IMG/VR virus record: IMGVR_UViG_3300032267_000094
Coordinates: 1-20,647 of that record
Direction: 5' to 3' (one strand)
From: a virus
DNA: 20,647 nucleotides
Shown here: positions 7,529 through 16,039 of the stretch, piece by piece
Numbering within the stretch: position 1 is the first letter of the stretch
Layout: every line of letters starts with the position of its first letter
The notes under the pieces: model-generated
Told to the model about the DNA's origin: nothing
Database searches by the model: none
What the model saw: the letters and a program-made list of their open reading frames with translations, nothing else
Position numbers and translations under genes: made by a program

Positions 7529-8059
7529 ATGGAAGTCGCAATTGCCGCAATGCTTGTAAGCGCCGTTGGCCAATATCAACAAGGTCAAACGCAACAGAAA
7601 ATTTATAATGCCCAGGCACAAGCCGCTCAACAACAGGCGGACTTTCAAGCCCAGCAAGTAACAATGCAAGGCAGAACCGAAGCTATTCGCGCCCAGCAAG
7701 AGGGGTTAAAAACGTTGACAAACATTAACCGAACAATCTCGACAGTAAGAGCTAGAGCTGGCGCCGGAGCAATTGATCCGTTTGGCGGATCTGCTGGCAC
7801 ATTGCAAACATACGCATTGCGCGAGGGTTATACAGAATTTAATATCTCCCAGGAGAATGCAAAGCTGGCTCAATCTTCTGCTGGATTCCAGGCAAACATT
7901 TACAAATATTCCGGCCAGCAAAACGCCAACATTCTGCGCGCATCCGGCGATGCCGCGGCCGAAGCTGGTATGTACCAGGCAATTGGCACAGTCGGCCAGG
8001 CTGGCATGATGTATTCATCTGCCGGCGGACCCAAATCTAAATACTCACTATTTGGATAA
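7529..8059 (+). CDS. Internal virion protein, T7 gp14-like ejection protein
   Basis: At 176 residues it is near T7 gp14 (196), which is ejected first and forms the outer-membrane pore in T7. The N-terminus MEVAIAAMLVSAVGQYQQGQ is a short hydrophobic helix; a Gln/Ala-rich coiled helix follows (about 25-65), then a conserved-looking segment STVRARAGAGAIDPFGGSAG (70-89) and Ala-rich helices. The pattern RARAGAxGxxxxGGSxxxL is typical of gp14-like proteins. It lies between nozzle and the large ejection proteins as in T7. The upstream sequence GGACAATAATCATGG has no classic Shine-Dalgarno but is nearly identical to the leader of the next gene. Confidence 0.82.
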   Translation: MEVAIAAMLVSAVGQYQQGQTQQKIYNAQAQAAQQQADFQAQQVTMQGRTEAIRAQQEGLKTLTNINRTISTVRARAGAGAIDPFGGSAGTLQTYALREGYTEFNISQENAKLAQSSAGFQANIYKYSGQQNANILRASGDAAAEAGMYQAIGTVGQAGMMYSSAGGPKSKYSLFG

Positions 8060-8064
8060 TAATC

Positions 8065-10329
8065 ATGGCCGATAGACTTCCACGATACCAACAAACCGGC
8101 ATAGCGATAGATCCGTATCGTGCCGCATCAATGCCATCAATTGATTATTCGCCATTAAGTCGCGAAAGCAGAAATCTTGCCCAGGCACAACAGGGAGCAT
8201 TAGATCGCGTTATTACATTTGCCGGCAAGATTGGTATGGAACAGGCCGAAGAAAAAGGTCGGGCATCCGTACAAACTGCTGAACAGGCTCGCCAGGTATT
8301 AGAAGATACCCAAAAAACTGGTATGCCGCGTAGTGTTTACGATAAAGCCGCTTATGACCAGGCGAATGAACTTGTTGCATTGCAATTGCAAAACGATGGC
8401 CGCAGACTTTTAAGCGAAAAAGTTAACGCATTCAAAAACGATCCCAATTCTGACCCAATTCAGTTTTTAGCAGAAGCCGCTGATGTACGCGATGGCCTGG
8501 AATCGCTGACAACTTTATTGGACCCAAAACTAAAGGGCCGAGTTTCTAACGATTTAGATCGTATTAAAAATGTCTCATTCCTAGAAATATCTGAGCGTCA
8601 CAATGATCGCGTTGCCCAGCAATTAAAGGCAACAACGCTGGCCGGATTAGAGCAAAATGGTCAAGATGCCATTCGCATCATGAGTAGCGGCATGGCAAAT
8701 TCTGAAAATATTTTATTTCAAGAATTACAAAGAATTAGACAGTACGCTATTGGCGGCGGATTTGGACCGGTAGAAGTAGAGCGTCAAATACAAAGCATTA
8801 CAGAGCAAGCTCACATAGCGCGCTTTAGAAAAGAATACGAAAGGGCGCCAAACAAGGCGGCATTCCTAAAGCAAGTGCAGTCTGATCTCGGAGCTGGTCC
8901 CATTGGCGAGCTATACGATAAAGAAGGTAATCCTCTCAAACAGAATCGCATTACCCGCGGCATCGATGTAAACCGCATGGGCGCCCTGGTCAATGAGATC
9001 GAGGCAGACTTGCGTGCCAGGGACGCACAATTTAGAGCATTGCGTACTGAATTGAAAACAGATGTATCGGAATCATTGCGAATTATTTCTCTTGGCCAGG
9101 TGCCAAGCGAAGGCGTAGTTACAGAAATTCAAGGCCGCGCCCGTCGTTTAGGATTACCCGACAATGATCCTACAATGCGCCAGGTTAACTATTTGAGTGT
9201 ATTGCGTCAAAACTCTATTGCATTTAATAAGATGTCGCCCATGCAATTAGGCGACTGGATTCGTGACGCGCAAAGCAAAACAACTGGCGGCGCAACTCTT
9301 GAACAAGCAATGTTAATTGACGTAGCTCAAAAATCATTAACTCATAAAACAACTATGCTTGATAAAGATCCGGTTAGTTACATGAATCAAACCGGAGCCG
9401 CCGAAGTTAAAACTCTTAACTTTGCGGCGGCACCCGTCGATTTAGTAAAGCAAATTGGAGAACGCGTAACGCAATCTAAATCGTTTGCGGCCAGCATGAA
9501 CTCGCAACCCAAGTATTTTTCCCAGGATGAGGCTAATGCTTTAAACACATTTTTACTAACTGCTACTCCCGATCAGCAAATTTCATTGCTTGGATTTATG
9601 AACCAAGGTTTTGGAAAAGATAGCTTGAACGCAATGCGCGAACTTTCAAAATCTGCGCCTGAGTTTGCCCATGTTGGCGGACTGGCTATATCCGGCGCAA
9701 GCAAGCAAACTCTTTTTGATGCGCTTAATGGTGCAAAACAACGCCAGGCTGGTAATAAACCATTTGAAGGTACTGGAGATGCGGCAACAAAGCGCAACGT
9801 TATTGCCGACCAATTGGGTAGCGCTTATGCAATATTGCCTGAGACGCGCGCCAACATATTAACAACTGCTGATAATATTTATACTCAGCGCGCGATTGTT
9901 GCTGGCAAAACAGTATTTGATGAAGATATGTATAAACAAGCATTTCAAGAGGCCGCCGGCGCAACCAAAGATAAAAATGGAAAAATGTATGGCGGAATTA
10001 TTGAATACAGGGGAAATCGTATTTCAATACCTAGCAATATTCCACAAGATCGTTTTAGCGATATTATTAGAAGAGCGACCTACGATGATTTTGTTGCCGC
10101 ATCAAATGGAGTGCCGGCTGACGATACAGGACGTGCATATACCATTGATAGGTTAAGAAAGGGTTATCCCGTATCCGACGCAAGTGGTACGGCATTTTGG
10201 TCATTTGATAATCCGAAAGAAAAAGCTGGCGGCACTCTTATAGGTTTTTATACTAAAGATGGATCACCATTAAAGGTTGATCTCAGAGTGCTGGGTGAAA
10301 GAGTAAAAGCAAGGGAAGGCATTAAATGA
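8065..10329 (+). CDS. Internal virion protein, T7 gp15-like ejection protein
   Basis: Length 754 is close to T7 gp15 (747). gp15 forms, with gp16, the inner core and the periplasmic tunnel through which DNA enters. The protein is almost wholly helical, rich in Q, A, R and D, with no signal peptide or membrane segment; the N-terminus RYQQTGIAIDPYRAASMPSIDY resembles the extended start seen in gp15-like proteins. The C-terminal quarter (about 630-754) is more mixed alpha/beta, with KMYGGIIEYRGNRISIPSNIP and AFWSFDNPKEKAGGTLIGFYTKDG, looking like a separate globular domain. Assignment rests on size, position and helical character; sequence identity to T7 itself is weak. Stop and next start share ATGA. 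Confidence 0.8.
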   Translation: MADRLPRYQQTGIAIDPYRAASMPSIDYSPLSRESRNLAQAQQGALDRVITFAGKIGMEQAEEKGRASVQTAEQARQVLEDTQKTGMPRSVYDKAAYDQANELVALQLQNDGRRLLSEKVNAFKNDPNSDPIQFLAEAADVRDGLESLTTLLDPKLKGRVSNDLDRIKNVSFLEISERHNDRVAQQLKATTLAGLEQNGQDAIRIMSSGMANSENILFQELQRIRQYAIGGGFGPVEVERQIQSITEQAHIARFRKEYERAPNKAAFLKQVQSDLGAGPIGELYDKEGNPLKQNRITRGIDVNRMGALVNEIEADLRARDAQFRALRTELKTDVSESLRIISLGQVPSEGVVTEIQGRARRLGLPDNDPTMRQVNYLSVLRQNSIAFNKMSPMQLGDWIRDAQSKTTGGATLEQAMLIDVAQKSLTHKTTMLDKDPVSYMNQTGAAEVKTLNFAAAPVDLVKQIGERVTQSKSFAASMNSQPKYFSQDEANALNTFLLTATPDQQISLLGFMNQGFGKDSLNAMRELSKSAPEFAHVGGLAISGASKQTLFDALNGAKQRQAGNKPFEGTGDAATKRNVIADQLGSAYAILPETRANILTTADNIYTQRAIVAGKTVFDEDMYKQAFQEAAGATKDKNGKMYGGIIEYRGNRISIPSNIPQDRFSDIIRRATYDDFVAASNGVPADDTGRAYTIDRLRKGYPVSDASGTAFWSFDNPKEKAGGTLIGFYTKDGSPLKVDLRVLGERVKAREGIK

Positions 10330-13300
10330 GTTTTGTCTTTGACCAAGAAAACCCATCTGCCATTACCTTTAAGCCATTGGGTGGTGGAGAGGATACTGGA
10401 TTTGTTGAAAATTATGATTCCGCATACCAAGCTACTTTAAAACTTAATCGTAGTGATTCGCGCCCCATCAGTTTGCGCGAACAATGGGATCCAATTGTCC
10501 AGGAGATACAACAAAAAACCGGTAAAAAATTTATTAACCCAGCAAACTATCTCGGTGGTTATACCGCATCTCCTGACACTCCAATTAGAGGATACAACTA
10601 TTCATCAAAACAAATTTTTGATTTTGTTAAAGAGCGCCCCGATATTTTTCCTGATTTAGTTAATTTAGATAACGATATTATTTTTGAAAAAGCAAAACAA
10701 AAAGCAATTAAATCCGGAGACGTTAGTGCCGACGTAGCATCAAGACAAACATTTTCCGGCTTGCTAGGAGAGTTTGCCGGTAGTGCAGTAGCCTCAATAA
10801 CAGACTTGCCTAATCTTGCAACCGCATTTATTGGCGGCGGATCAACGTCTATTCTTAAAACAATTTTTAAGCAATCAGCAATTGCGGCCGGGTCCGAAGC
10901 AGTTATTCAAACTGAGGTGGCCGACTGGTACAAAACCCTGGACCTTCCATACGATTACAGGACATTCTTAACAAACGTAGGCATGGCCGCGGCCGGAGCT
11001 GGCGTAGTTACTGGTGGAGTGGTGGCGGCAAAACCGTTATATCAATTTACTAAAAAACAATTGATCGATGGTATTGAGGCATTAGGTAAAGCCAGGGCAA
11101 CTCGCGAAGGCCGTCCGTATGAAATAGATCCCGACGTTAAGATGATTAAAGAGCTTGACGATATAGACGCAACAATTAACCAGGGCAACGTTTTAAAAGA
11201 TGACGTTGGCAACCTGGAGCATACTTCTCGCGTCGAGCAATCTTACAAAGCAATAGAAAACGGTGATTCGACTAAGATCACGGCCGCACCGCCTGAAAGT
11301 CCAATCAATCGACCAAAAGATATATTTTTTCACGACAACCTAAACAACGAGATTTTTGCGTACAAGCCAAAAGACTTGCTAGTCGATGCCGAGTTATTCC
11401 AATTTAAGGCTGGCGGCGATGTCATGGGCGTTACCGAAAGATTAAAAGATATTACCAAGTGGGATCCAGTTAAAGCAAACACGGCAATCGTTTATGAGTT
11501 TGCCGACGGACGTACATTTATTGCTGACGGCCATCAACGCCTGGGACTTGCCAAGCGTTTGCAAGAAGCAGATCCTACACAAGATATTCAGATTTACGCA
11601 TTCAAGATTCGCGAAGTCGATGGATTCGATCCGGCTTATGCCAGGGCAACGGCCGCCGGCAAGAACCTGGCAGAAGGTACTGGCACACTCATTGACGCCG
11701 CCAAGATTCTTAGAGATGCGCCGGAGCTGATTAAGTCATTGCCGCCCAGGTCACAGTTTGTAAGACAGGCAAACGAGCTATCTCAACTTGGACCCAAAGC
11801 ATTTAACGCCGTGGTCAATGATGTAGTGCCGCCACATTTTGGATCTATCGTCGGCCGTTATATTACAGACGAGGCCCAGCAATTGGCCATCCTTCAACTA
11901 TTGCGCCGCCTGGAACCAGCAAATGCAGTCCAGGCCGAGCAAATCGTACGCCAGGCAAGAGAGGCCGGATTCGTTAAAACCGAACAGGCCGGTCTATTTG
12001 GCGATGAGGATATTGCAGAAAGCCTATTCTTAGAGCGGGCCAAGATCCTGGATCGCGCCATGAAAGAATTGCGTAAGGATAAGCAACTATTTGAGACGCT
12101 GGTAAAGAATGCAAACGATATTGAACAAGCCGGCAATACCCTGGCTAAACTGAGCAACGAAGAGAAAGAGGCTATTTATGGCAAAGCGATCGCTATCATT
12201 GAAAATAACGCAAACGTCCGGGGACCCATCTCAGACAATCTCACCCGAATCGCCAAGGCGTGGAAAGATGGCGGCGGAACCAAAACTGAAACTTACGTCC
12301 GCGAGTTTACCGAAAGCGTCCGCCGAGCAATTGAGGACGGGAGTTATGAAAGGGTACCAAATGGCGGAGATCGCGGCGATCTCACAACTCCGGCGCAAAG
12401 CAATCGATTCACAGAACCAGGCGCAGACGAGCTAAAAGGATTTGATGAAGGCCCTGGATCAATTGGCTCAAAGAACCAGGGCAACATCCTGGAAGGTGAT
12501 CTTCTAGGAGATATGCCCAATGCTGGCAAACCGATTACTGTTGATGAGTATGTAGCCAAGTCATTAAATGAAAATGATCTTGCGGCGCTGGATGTTGAGG
12601 CACAAACAACGTTGCGTAATCTGTACCAAGACGCCGCATTACGTAAAGAACAGTTTGACAATATCAATCGCAATATTGCCAACCTGGTTAATGCTGAATA
12701 CAAAGCCGCAAACTTAAAAGGATCTAGTCGTGCAGTCGAAAAGATTGTCTATGACTATGCTGGCGACGCAACCATGATTAAGGATTTATTGCGCGCTACG
12801 ATTATTGTTGACAACTTCCAACAAGCTGGCGTTGCACTAAGAGAATTGCGTGGCCAGTATCGCGTACTTGATGGCGGCTTTAGAAACCTACTCGATCCAA
12901 AAGTAAAAGCATTGGATGGCGGGTATCGCGATATTAAGATGAACGTTGAGATTGACGGACATATTGCAGAAGTGCAGATTAGCATTCCTGAATTTATGAA
13001 GGTCAAGGATAAATATCATGCGATGTATGCAGAGCGCGATGGTATCTTGCGCCGCATTACAGATGAGAACCGTCAACCTACTAGAGCTGAACAATCACAG
13101 ATTGATAAGATGAATGCCGAGATGGGCCTGGCTTATGATGAGGCGTTAGCGGCAGTTCTTAATCGCTCGAACTCGGCCTTGTCAACTGGCGCGCCATTAC
13201 GTAATGCTGAATCTGCTGGGAAAGGTCTTGGTGAAGATTTATCCCAGGCCGCGCAAAAGCCAGGAAAACCAGGAACAGAACCTAAAGTAACTGGGATTCC

Positions 13301-13547
13301 TTCAACGTCGAGAAACTCTACTTTTTTAGATGATTTCATTAAGGACACTCCTGACTTAACTCTAGCACAGATCGGTACTGGTGGCAAACGCAATGCTGAT
13401 CTTATGGACCTGGAAGTGCCTATTGCGGAAAGAATCGACCCAGTAACCGGTGAGAGAATATCGGAAGTGCAAACTGTAAAACAAATTTTAGACGACTTTG
13501 AACAGGATAAGTCTATGTTAGAGCGCTTAGTAGGGTGCGTTAAATGA
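10326..13547 (+). CDS. Large ejection (internal virion) protein with ParB-like and RelA/SpoT-like domains
   Basis: The 1073-residue protein lies in the gp16 position among ejection genes. Visible parts: N-terminal segment WDPIVQEIQQKTGKKFINP (54-72); Gly/Ala-rich hydrophobic stretches (143-175 and 220-235) that could insert into membrane; a ParB-like domain (about 332-510) with FQFK, IADGHQRLGLA (399-409; core DGHQR 401-405) and KNLAEGTGTLIDAAKILRD (446-464); a charged helical middle (515-690); a RelA/SpoT-like nucleotidyltransferase domain (about 775-910) with R802, K806, KDLLRATI (D820), GGYRDIK (Y867) and EVQI (E882, Q884); and a disordered Pro/Ser-rich tail. No T7-type transglycosylase is seen. 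Multi-domain ejected proteins of this kind are known as phage polyvalent proteins. Start and stop overlap neighbours by ATGA. Structural placement is firm, domain calls good, activity unproven. Confidence 0.82.
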   Translation: MSFVFDQENPSAITFKPLGGGEDTGFVENYDSAYQATLKLNRSDSRPISLREQWDPIVQEIQQKTGKKFINPANYLGGYTASPDTPIRGYNYSSKQIFDFVKERPDIFPDLVNLDNDIIFEKAKQKAIKSGDVSADVASRQTFSGLLGEFAGSAVASITDLPNLATAFIGGGSTSILKTIFKQSAIAAGSEAVIQTEVADWYKTLDLPYDYRTFLTNVGMAAAGAGVVTGGVVAAKPLYQFTKKQLIDGIEALGKARATREGRPYEIDPDVKMIKELDDIDATINQGNVLKDDVGNLEHTSRVEQSYKAIENGDSTKITAAPPESPINRPKDIFFHDNLNNEIFAYKPKDLLVDAELFQFKAGGDVMGVTERLKDITKWDPVKANTAIVYEFADGRTFIADGHQRLGLAKRLQEADPTQDIQIYAFKIREVDGFDPAYARATAAGKNLAEGTGTLIDAAKILRDAPELIKSLPPRSQFVRQANELSQLGPKAFNAVVNDVVPPHFGSIVGRYITDEAQQLAILQLLRRLEPANAVQAEQIVRQAREAGFVKTEQAGLFGDEDIAESLFLERAKILDRAMKELRKDKQLFETLVKNANDIEQAGNTLAKLSNEEKEAIYGKAIAIIENNANVRGPISDNLTRIAKAWKDGGGTKTETYVREFTESVRRAIEDGSYERVPNGGDRGDLTTPAQSNRFTEPGADELKGFDEGPGSIGSKNQGNILEGDLLGDMPNAGKPITVDEYVAKSLNENDLAALDVEAQTTLRNLYQDAALRKEQFDNINRNIANLVNAEYKAANLKGSSRAVEKIVYDYAGDATMIKDLLRATIIVDNFQQAGVALRELRGQYRVLDGGFRNLLDPKVKALDGGYRDIKMNVEIDGHIAEVQISIPEFMKVKDKYHAMYAERDGILRRITDENRQPTRAEQSQIDKMNAEMGLAYDEALAAVLNRSNSALSTGAPLRNAESAGKGLGEDLSQAAQKPGKPGTEPKVTGIPSTSRNSTFLDDFIKDTPDLTLAQIGTGGKRNADLMDLEVPIAERIDPVTGERISEVQTVKQILDDFEQDKSMLERLVGCVK

Positions 13548-16039
13548 GCTTTAGAGAATGTATTACCAACGGCGAAAATGAGGGAAAACTCTCAGGGGAT
13601 CAGGCCGCCAAGGCCAGGGGCTTATTTGACGAGCTAGAGGCGGAGTACGCCAAGAAGATGGATCCCATCCAGGCTGGCACCCAGGCGGCGAAAGATACTT
13701 TTGACGCATTGCAAAAAGAGGCCATTGAAAAGAAACGCGTTAAATTGTTGCAAATACGCAACTGGCAGAAGATTAGCTTTGACTTAAATCAATATGCGGG
13801 TGGTGAAAGTTTAGGAAAGGCCGCCCAGGCATTACTGGATCGCGACGAATTTGCTAAGTATTCAAACGTGGAAGCCAGGCGCAAAGCCGTACTTGGTCAA
13901 ATATATTCCAAGATGGATGATGTCCTGGCAACCTTTAGACGTCGCGGCGTAACCGGTGGACTAGGTAATAAGGCCATGGCCAAGGACCTGGTACGCGAAG
14001 TGTTTGGCGAGGATACCGGATCGGCCGCCGCAAAAGAATTAGCACAGTCCTGGTCAACTGCGGCGGATTATGCCCGCCAGCGCTTTAATGCGGCCGGTGG
14101 TGCCATTCCAAAACGTAAGGATTGGGGTATGCCTCAGATCCACGATTCGATGCTTGTACGCAAGGCTGGACGCGAAGAATGGACTAACTTTATCCGTGAG
14201 CGCCTAGACCTGGAAAAGATGATCGATGAGCGTACCGGGCTTAAATTTACCCCGGAACGCCTGGAGCTGGCCCTGGCACAAGTATTCGATTCTATTGCGA
14301 CGGAAGGCTGGAACAAGGTTAAACCGTCCGGCGCTGGTGGTGGCCGCTCAATGGCTAACCGTCACCAGGACCATCGATTCCTGGCGTTTAAGAATGCAGA
14401 TTCCTGGATGGAGTACCAGGAAAAATTTGGCAATCCTGAACCGTTCGTCACCATGGTTAATCACCTGGAAGGAATGTCCAGGGATATATCGATGATGGAG
14501 ATACTAGGGCCTAACCCTAATGCGACGGTCCGGTATATCCATCAAACCGTCATGCAAGACGCCAAGATCAAAGAAGCAAATCAACCTGAAACGAAGATGG
14601 TCGAGCGGGCCAATAAAGAGCTGGGTATGTTTGATTCGATGTACGCGATCCTCAATGGATCCACGGCATCCCCGGTCGATGGTACCGTTGCCAGGGGCTT
14701 TGCCGGCTTGCGCCAAATACTTCAATCGGCGCAACTTGGCGCGGCCGCCGTCTCTGCCCTAACCGATATTAACTTCCAGCGTATTGCCGCTCAAACTTCG
14801 GGAATACCCGCGGCTGACGTGATTAAACGCGTCGCCGATAACCTGGTCCCGCTCAACATTGACGAGAAGGGACGCCTGGCATCTCGCCTGGGATTGATCG
14901 CAGAAAACTGGACTAGCGTTGCAAACGCCCAGGCACGATTCGTCGGTGATATGACTGGCCCTGAAATTACACGTCGCATCTCTGATACGGTCATGCGGAT
15001 TACAGGGTTATCCCCATGGACCCAGGCCGGACGCTGGGCGTTTGGTATGGAGTTTATGGGTTACGTTGCCGACAATGCGGCCAAGAAGTTTAAGGATTTG
15101 GATAAGCCGCTCCAGGACACATTAACCAGGTATGGCATTGGAGAGGGTAACTGGGAAGTGATCCGTACTTCCGGGTTATACGAACACGAAGGTGCAACAT
15201 TCCTACGTCCTGAAGAGATCGCCCTACGGACCGACTTGCAACCAGGACGGGCCGATGATCTAGCGACGCGATTCCTGGAGATGATCCAGTCCGAGACGGA
15301 GTTTGCCGTACCTTCTGCATCCATCCGTGGACGCGTCATGCTGGTAGGCGAATCACGCCCTGGTACGTTTGTGGGTGAAATCTCCCGTTCGTTCGCCATG
15401 TATAAGAATTTCCCCGTCACGTTACTAAATACCCACGTCATGCGGGCCGTGAATGCGGAAAACTTTAATAAGAAGGGTGCGTACTTTGCGGACCTGGTTA
15501 TCTCGACTACCCTATTCGGCGCCCTGGCAATGCAACTCAAAGAGATTACCAAGGGGCGCGATCCACGTACAGTAATGACGCCTGAGTTTTGGGGATCTGC
15601 ATTACTCCAGGGCGGTGGCCTGGGTATCCTGGGCGACTTCTTATTTAACGACGTTAACCGTTTTGGCGGCGGACTAGAGCAAACCATTGCCGGCCCGGTA
15701 GTCGGATTCCTGGACGATACGCGCCGCTTAACAATTGGTAATGTCCAAGAATTAGCAACTGGCAAGGATACCAACTTCATGCGGGAGCTAATCTCATACG
15801 CCGGACGCTATACCCCAGGGTCATCCATTTGGTATTTGCGCCTGGCACTAGAGCGTCAAATCCTGGATCGCTTACAGATTTGGGGCGATCCGGACGCTAA
15901 ACAACGAATGCGGGAAATCGAAGCGCGTTACAGACGAGAAACTGGCCAGCGCTATTGGTGGTCCCCAGGTGATACCGAACCGGAACGCGGTCCGGATTTT
16001 GAGCGTTTAACTGCGGAACCCCCGCCAAAAAGGAAATAA
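13544..16039 (+). CDS. Large internal core/ejection protein with conserved C-terminal YWWSPG motif
   Basis: The 831-residue protein closes the ejection cassette. Its N-terminal half is helical and charged, the middle includes GMPQIHDSMLVRKAGREEW (about 195-213) and NRHQDHRFLAFKNADSWMEY, and the C-terminal third has FKNFP-like SFAMYKNFPVTLLNTH, a hydrophobic helix near 645-663, LLQGGGLGILGDFLF, and RYWWSPGDTEP near the end (Y804, W805, W806, P808). This last pattern is widespread at the C-terminus of large phage internal proteins and probably marks the core or membrane-tunnel domain. Together with the 1073-residue gene it may split the roles of T7 gp16 (1318). ATGA overlap with the previous gene; only a weak ribosome binding site, so coupling is likely. 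CCWGG is very dense here. Confidence 0.82.
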   Translation: MSFRECITNGENEGKLSGDQAAKARGLFDELEAEYAKKMDPIQAGTQAAKDTFDALQKEAIEKKRVKLLQIRNWQKISFDLNQYAGGESLGKAAQALLDRDEFAKYSNVEARRKAVLGQIYSKMDDVLATFRRRGVTGGLGNKAMAKDLVREVFGEDTGSAAAKELAQSWSTAADYARQRFNAAGGAIPKRKDWGMPQIHDSMLVRKAGREEWTNFIRERLDLEKMIDERTGLKFTPERLELALAQVFDSIATEGWNKVKPSGAGGGRSMANRHQDHRFLAFKNADSWMEYQEKFGNPEPFVTMVNHLEGMSRDISMMEILGPNPNATVRYIHQTVMQDAKIKEANQPETKMVERANKELGMFDSMYAILNGSTASPVDGTVARGFAGLRQILQSAQLGAAAVSALTDINFQRIAAQTSGIPAADVIKRVADNLVPLNIDEKGRLASRLGLIAENWTSVANAQARFVGDMTGPEITRRISDTVMRITGLSPWTQAGRWAFGMEFMGYVADNAAKKFKDLDKPLQDTLTRYGIGEGNWEVIRTSGLYEHEGATFLRPEEIALRTDLQPGRADDLATRFLEMIQSETEFAVPSASIRGRVMLVGESRPGTFVGEISRSFAMYKNFPVTLLNTHVMRAVNAENFNKKGAYFADLVISTTLFGALAMQLKEITKGRDPRTVMTPEFWGSALLQGGGLGILGDFLFNDVNRFGGGLEQTIAGPVVGFLDDTRRLTIGNVQELATGKDTNFMRELISYAGRYTPGSSIWYLRLALERQILDRLQIWGDPDAKQRMREIEARYRRETGQRYWWSPGDTEPERGPDFERLTAEPPPKRK

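Follow-up and report, generated by a model that had tools for sequence, protein, structure and literature searches.

What a RelA/SpoT-type nucleotide synthetase would be doing inside a large protein of a podovirus DNA-ejection cassette is the question raised by this locus. The stretch analysed, referred to here as the window, comprises the 20,647 nucleotides at positions 1–20,647 of virus record IMGVR_UViG_3300032267_000094; the early region lies outside the record. The gene of interest overlaps, at its 5′ end, the gp15-position gene (754 aa) and, at its 3′ end, the gene of an 831-aa virion protein:

7529..8059, + strand: gp14-like internal virion protein (PF24072 T7_gp14, E 4.3e-4, below the curated cut-off; phrog_418, E 0.0033)
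8065..10329, + strand: putative internal virion protein in the gp15 position (phrog_992 'head protein', E 1e-16; position)
10326..13547, + strand: putative ejection (internal virion) protein of 1073 aa, carrier of the slot described below (open reading frame preceded by the gp14/gp15-like genes and followed by the phrog_684 virion protein)
13544..16039, + strand: virion structural protein, next after the slot gene (phrog_684, E 9e-186)

Because a T7-type scaffold gene (PF05396, E 1e-24), the gp14-like gene and the gp15-position gene all lie upstream, sequence evidence places the 1073-aa gene in a gp14–gp15–gp16-type ejection cassette of a T7-like podovirus. From gene order we infer that its product is an ejection protein, and it probably belongs to the ejectosome of a T7-like or SI2-like podovirus. 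The downstream virion protein has homologues in Dunaliella virus SI2, phiV10 and SPN1S, and in the T7-like cyanophage P-SCSP1a a homologous core lies within a 2571-aa protein at the corresponding gene position. A search for a single-subunit RNA polymerase gave no match, with the control genomes equally silent. Directly upstream of the portal gene, the window also holds a small DUF6321 gene (538–852; PF19846, E 1e-26).

The 1073-aa protein combines a constant body, made up of an N-terminal part, a ParB-like core and a C-terminal motif, with an effector slot between core and motif:

11376..12413, + strand: ParB/Noc-like core, constant part, aa 351–696 (phrog_10691, E 1.2e-62; AF2 and Foldseek)
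12546..13229, + strand: predicted RelA/SpoT-type (Tas1-like) synthetase domain, the variable cassette, aa 741–968 (phmmer, profile, AF2, Foldseek, VIA-align, residue invariance, dN/dS)
13395..13547, + strand: conserved C-terminal motif (...QDKSMLERLVGCVK) closing the slot, aa 1024–1073, which ends RSH, zeta and empty versions alike

When the core was modelled with AF2 (aa 351–696; pLDDT 78.6, pTM 0.60), Foldseek gave clear matches to Noc and ParB alone (best E 8.5e-4); an invariant ADGHQR motif lies within the core. Profile searches with the core recovered 80 viral loci and 27 bacterial contigs, the bacterial homologues being prophage-like, mostly from Alphaproteobacteria (among them Methylobacterium jeotgali LMG 23639, L174, and Bradyrhizobium sp. 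NAS80.1, L178) and present in both RSH and short slot versions; the RSH profile, run against bacterial genomes, gave no match, although the core profile did recover these homologues. The bacterial core homologues L169, L176, L188, L189, L191 and L194 have tails of 200–890 aa with neither RSH nor zeta, which may represent further cassette classes. Within the core, aa ~400–500 (window 11526–11823) show just 64% identity in L009, L011 and L012, where neighbouring stretches reach up to 98–100%; these loci share a diverged RSH variant, and ParB segment and RSH variant seem to co-travel.

The initial annotation had recognised a RelA/SpoT-type domain in this protein from its sequence, and both homology searches and structure prediction bear this out. 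Phmmer with aa 755–930 against PDB sequences retrieved Tas1 (PDB 6ox6; E 8.2e-7), and a 13-member RSH family profile retrieved Tas1 at E 2.8e-17 and SaEAS weakly. With the AF2 model of aa 741–968 (14 sequences; pLDDT 85.5, pTM 0.80), Foldseek ranked Tas1 first (E 1.6e-7), followed by SaEAS, RelA, Rel and RelQ, with matches to RelA, Rel, RelQ and RelP at E<1e-4; VIA-align gave Z scores of 16.0 for RelP, 15.9 for RelQ and 13.8 for Tas1 (24% identity), and FaRel2 and CapRel were also among the structural matches. The phmmer, profile, Foldseek and VIA-align scores rule out a chance resemblance. Pfam, NCBIfam and PHROGs scans of the window protein, including Pfam RelA_SpoT (PF04607), returned no match for the domain, and the assignment therefore rests on Tas1, on structure and on a homologue in Bordetella phage PHB04 that does match PF04607 (E 4.4e-7). 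Sequence and model together identify aa ~745–960 as a RelA/SpoT homologue (RSH) synthetase (SYNTH/toxSYNTH) domain. The residues first singled out (R802, K806, D820, Y867, E882 and Q884) are correctly numbered, as are the ends of the segment first proposed, E775 starting at 12648 and R910 ending at 13055; that segment (aa ~775–910) is rightly located but too short, the model being confident to about aa 950 and the domain with its helices spanning aa ~741–960 (window 12546 to ~13210).

Four synthetase motifs can be followed through 31 copies of the domain:

12717..12743, + strand: basic Syn1 KGSSRAVEK, aa 798–806; K798 and K806 kept in all 31 copies, R802 in 28
12783..12803, + strand: Syn2 DLLRATI with metal-binding-type D820 and R823, aa 820–826; both invariant in 31; R-x-T signature
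12921..12944, + strand: Syn3/G-loop GYRDIKMN with Y867, aa 866–873; aromatic in 31 of 31 (27 Y, 2 F, 2 W)
12969..12992, + strand: Syn4 EVQISIPE with catalytic-type E882, aa 882–889; E882 invariant in 31

The copies in which K798, K806, D820, R823 and E882 are invariant are diverged and non-identical, and they take in L066, L067 and L069, whose proteins are unrelated outside the RSH domain. Pairwise dN/dS within the domain, for the pairs with unsaturated synonymous sites, was 0.066–0.133, and the domain is under purifying selection. Because the catalytic residues are invariant and dN/dS is low, the domain is likely to be an active enzyme; the earlier suggestion that its catalytic residues are kept and that activity is possible now draws on sequence, structure prediction, invariance and selection alike.

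Which product such an enzyme would make is best approached through Tas1 (Apk1), the (p)ppApp effector of a Pseudomonas type VI secretion system (T6SS), which is the best sequence match and is alike in fold and in Syn1/Syn2/Syn4 pattern. Both domains are fused to a putative or known delivery protein, a T6SS PAAR protein in Tas1 and a phage ejection protein here; Tas1 has Tis1 immunity, whereas no Tis1-like immunity gene was recognised beside the window gene. Adenosine-type synthetases have R-x-T in Syn2, GxN in Syn3 and a Syn4 other than I-R, and guanosine-type synthetases have AVR, SxH and IR, respectively (PMC12226406). The corresponding window motifs are DLLRAT, GYRDIK and EVQIS. Syn2 (D-x-x-R-A-T) is of adenosine type (compare RNT in Tas1 and RYT in Apk2) rather than the AVR of (p)ppGpp synthetases, and Syn4 resembles EIQVN of Tas1. 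Syn3 differs from GYSGVN of Tas1 and, because it fits neither GxN of Apk2 nor SxH of (p)ppGpp makers, leaves the acceptor nucleotide uncertain. These signatures are in any case weak predictors of product, since motif swaps in Apk2 left specificity unchanged (PMC12226406). Judged by sequence, the nearest relatives of the domain are adenosine-type effectors, and the chances of a (p)ppApp-like product seem slightly better than even. Between an alarmone and tRNA pyrophosphorylated at its 3′-CCA, the two products originally proposed, the adenosine-type Syn2 and Syn4 favour the alarmone and make FaRel2/CapRel-type tRNA modification less likely; with the same two motifs, the role of guanine-stacking tyrosine given to Y867 also becomes less likely. 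Synthesis of (p)ppGpp, with a conventional stringent response helping the phage, would be compatible with the RSH fold and with Y867 stacking on guanine, and the exported Tas1 homologues VpEAS and AaEAS make (p)ppGpp only (PMC12691689); Syn2 and Syn4 speak against it, though such signatures predict weakly (PMC12226406), and we consider it unlikely.

We defined the slot as the stretch between the ParB-like core and the shared C-terminal motif. It holds an RSH domain in 34 of the 76 classifiable core proteins and a zeta-toxin kinase in 27 (Pfam PF06414, best E ~1e-22), is empty in 14, with a linker of 82–144 aa only, and has weak ART-like content in one; two classes were never found in one protein, and a further 6 proteins fell outside the classes, their contigs being incomplete or the protein a different long one. 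A core tree of 62 rows, some of its branches weakly supported, calls for 18 changes of slot class, against a shuffled mean of 27.4. Among the closest carriers the difference in cassette is unambiguous: the cores of L112 (RSH) and L113 (zeta) are 96% identical, those of L108 (RSH) and L106 (zeta) 95%, and those of L145 (RSH) and L142 (empty) 88%. At the DNA level, L112 and L113 are 92% identical before and 89% identical after an unalignable cassette, and in L108/L106 and L145/L142 the flanks likewise align, with a sharp break only at the cassette. The RSH domains found in the slot fall into three diverged subtypes. A contig-assembly artefact was rejected, as switches recur in independent contigs, in the core tree and in bacterial genomes. 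From these comparisons the slot looks like an interchangeable effector ('weapon') site. On unrelated carriers, the same RSH domain also appears in three other types of phage protein, accompanied by ddrB-ParB in L066, a portal domain in L067 and L068, and ART-PolyVal in L069.

Several individual loci deserve mention. The ART-like slot (L132:6982-7986) matches PF13151 at E 2.5e-4 and ART-PolyVal at E 2e-3, both below curated cut-offs. A 1490-aa open reading frame (L067:2114-6583) joins the portal domain (PF06381) and the RSH domain to a weak metallopeptidase match. An extra domain of ~166 aa with no Pfam match immediately precedes the RSH domain at L011:7428-7925, and also in L010 and L012.

Some relatives encode, in addition to the synthetase, a candidate enzyme for the removal of its product, which is known from those relatives as the window record stops short of the early region concerned:

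L152:1480-2001: crown-clade hydrolase gene, PF13328 (HD_4)

This gene, next to that of a serine recombinase, was found in all seven records of the window's crown clade that contain its locus (G001, G003, G004, G005, G006, G051 and G052); the 41 records with a zeta, ART-like or empty slot all lack it. Its product resembles Mesh1, small alarmone hydrolases (SAHs) and a (p)ppApp hydrolase. The hydrolase is present in L003 (G006), whose RSH domain is 99% identical to that of the window, and L045, a zeta-bearing sister whose core is 81% identical, has both flanking genes with no hydrolase between them. In RSH-bearing L108 a second hydrolase gene lies on the opposite flank of the recombinase homologue. 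That the hydrolase always accompanies an RSH cassette is contradicted by two RSH-bearing loci, L144 (G030, a partial record), where the flanking genes are present without a hydrolase at that locus, and L145 (G014), with no hydrolase in 36 kb. The pairing thus amounts to two gains, both in RSH-bearing lineages, a phylogenetically thin pattern that may be due to chance. Phage hydrolases of this type also counter host toxSAS defences. The adjoining 228-aa serine recombinase (L152:797-1483, with homologues in G001–G006 and G041) could be an integrase or invertase, or could mark a hotspot of gene exchange.

A constant carrier, exchangeable enzymes of toxin classes, conserved catalysis and the lack of a co-exchanged immunity gene together fit an effector delivered with DNA. 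We favour, at a probability of roughly 0.68, an explanation in which a Tas1/Apk-like synthetase borne by the ejectosome is delivered with the genome, makes an adenosine-type product and is later countered by a hydrolase. The slot here holds a predicted RelA/SpoT-type pyrophosphokinase, its catalytic residues intact, that comes closest to the (p)ppApp-making enzymes Tas1 and Apk; the 1073-aa protein would be ejected along with the phage DNA, and its RSH domain would gain the cytoplasm, where it would move pyrophosphate from ATP to the 3′-OH of a nucleotide, most likely one of adenosine type. The purine pool might then be depleted, or used for signalling, in the first minutes of infection, and in crown-clade phages the early-region hydrolase may afterwards clear the product, or shield the cell during virion production. 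The broader proposal, in which an ejectosome protein with one exchangeable slot serves a podovirus family as its delivery platform and the synthetase-bearing clade couples its ejected synthetase to a hydrolase made later, so that infection opens with a timed pulse of alarmone, is tentative, and we would not bet on it in full.

An active synthetase might alternatively serve in the producing cell or in a lysogen, as the toxin or competition module proposed for MuF Apk2. The nearest characterised phage relatives are indeed the MuF-Apk2 toxins of temperate phages, which have immunity genes (PMC12226406, PMC5576092); 8 of 18 related records contain an integrase, related cores lie in genomes of Alphaproteobacteria, and the hydrolase gene resembles Aph1-type immunity. 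Window-clade records, however, have no integrase, no immunity gene is swapped with the cassette (L112 and L113 align on either side of it) and empty-slot versions are common, which makes action in the producing cell rather improbable. Pyrophosphorylation of the tRNA 3′-CCA end, shutting off host translation as with FaRel2 and CapRel, would involve the same superfamily, in which both of these enzymes match the model structurally, and a small hydrolase could reverse a tRNA modification too. Tas1 is nevertheless closest, and the G-x-R of Syn2 in tRNA-modifying FaRel2 (G93, R95; PMC11782079) is absent from DLLRATI, which has R-x-T; we dropped tRNA modification as the leading option and regard it as distinctly improbable. 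A catalytically dead filler, structural or DNA/nucleotide-binding, could be accommodated by a body that, with 14 empty-slot relatives, does not need the domain, but is highly improbable given the invariant catalytic residues of diverged copies, the purifying selection and the replacement by other enzymes.

Polymorphic effectors are familiar from secretion systems and from the MuF proteins of temperate phages. Under the delivery model preferred here, a constant carrier with an exchangeable toxin-like enzyme would bring the same logic into T7-like DNA-ejection machinery, apparently without a linked immunity gene, and, if true, some podoviruses would, just as they enter the cell, hit its pools of nucleotides or of cell-wall precursors. 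The pairs L112/L113 and L108/L106 are natural phages with near-identical carriers and different cassettes, and they offer a direct test of what each effector does.

Parts of this architecture have been described before. MuF-Apk2 toxins, whose enzymatic activity is proven (PMC12226406) and which a survey of MuF toxins places in temperate phages only (PMC5576092), are associated with phage virions, as the window protein would be, and likewise have a Tas1-like C-terminal domain and, in part of the family, a genome-encoded hydrolase. The window protein differs in being encoded by a podovirus ejection-cassette gene with a ParB-like core, in the non-adjacent position of the hydrolase and in a cassette that, within its family, is also swapped for a zeta kinase or absent; Pfam and PHROGs scans found no MuF domain in it, and directly downstream of its gene there is no immunity gene, the overlapping next gene encoding the virion protein. 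Polyvalent proteins (Iyer et al. 2017, PMC5512222) are also large phage proteins that mix ParB-like and RelA/SpoT domains, with ART and zeta among their other domains, and that study predicted their use as early-infection effectors and reported RelA/SpoT and zeta fusions to MuF; its main text does not describe a dedicated RSH/zeta/empty slot in a T7-like ejection-cassette family. Polyvalent proteins are recognised by several conflict-type domains, and the window protein has the ParB-like core and one effector domain, with virion association suggested by gene order. A search of open-access main texts for RelA/SpoT, zeta or toxin domains in the ejection proteins of podoviruses turned up no prior description of such a slot. 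It is established that polyvalent proteins can contain RelA/SpoT domains, and MuF proteins RelA/SpoT or zeta domains; for a T7-like ejection protein whose slot can be swapped, that search gave no precedent.

The PF04607-matching homologue in Bordetella phage vB_BbrM_PHB04 (ATI15652) has an RSH domain 37% identical to that of the window and an HD_4 hydrolase gene two genes downstream; it differs in following the portal gene, in its carrier and in lying outside any ejection cassette. At that locus (L015:5077-7342), the post-portal RSH gene is followed by a 69-aa gene and then by the HD_4 hydrolase, a trio that looks like a module of the Apk2-iapK-aph1 type and is annotated as hypothetical and (p)ppGpp synthetase/hydrolase.
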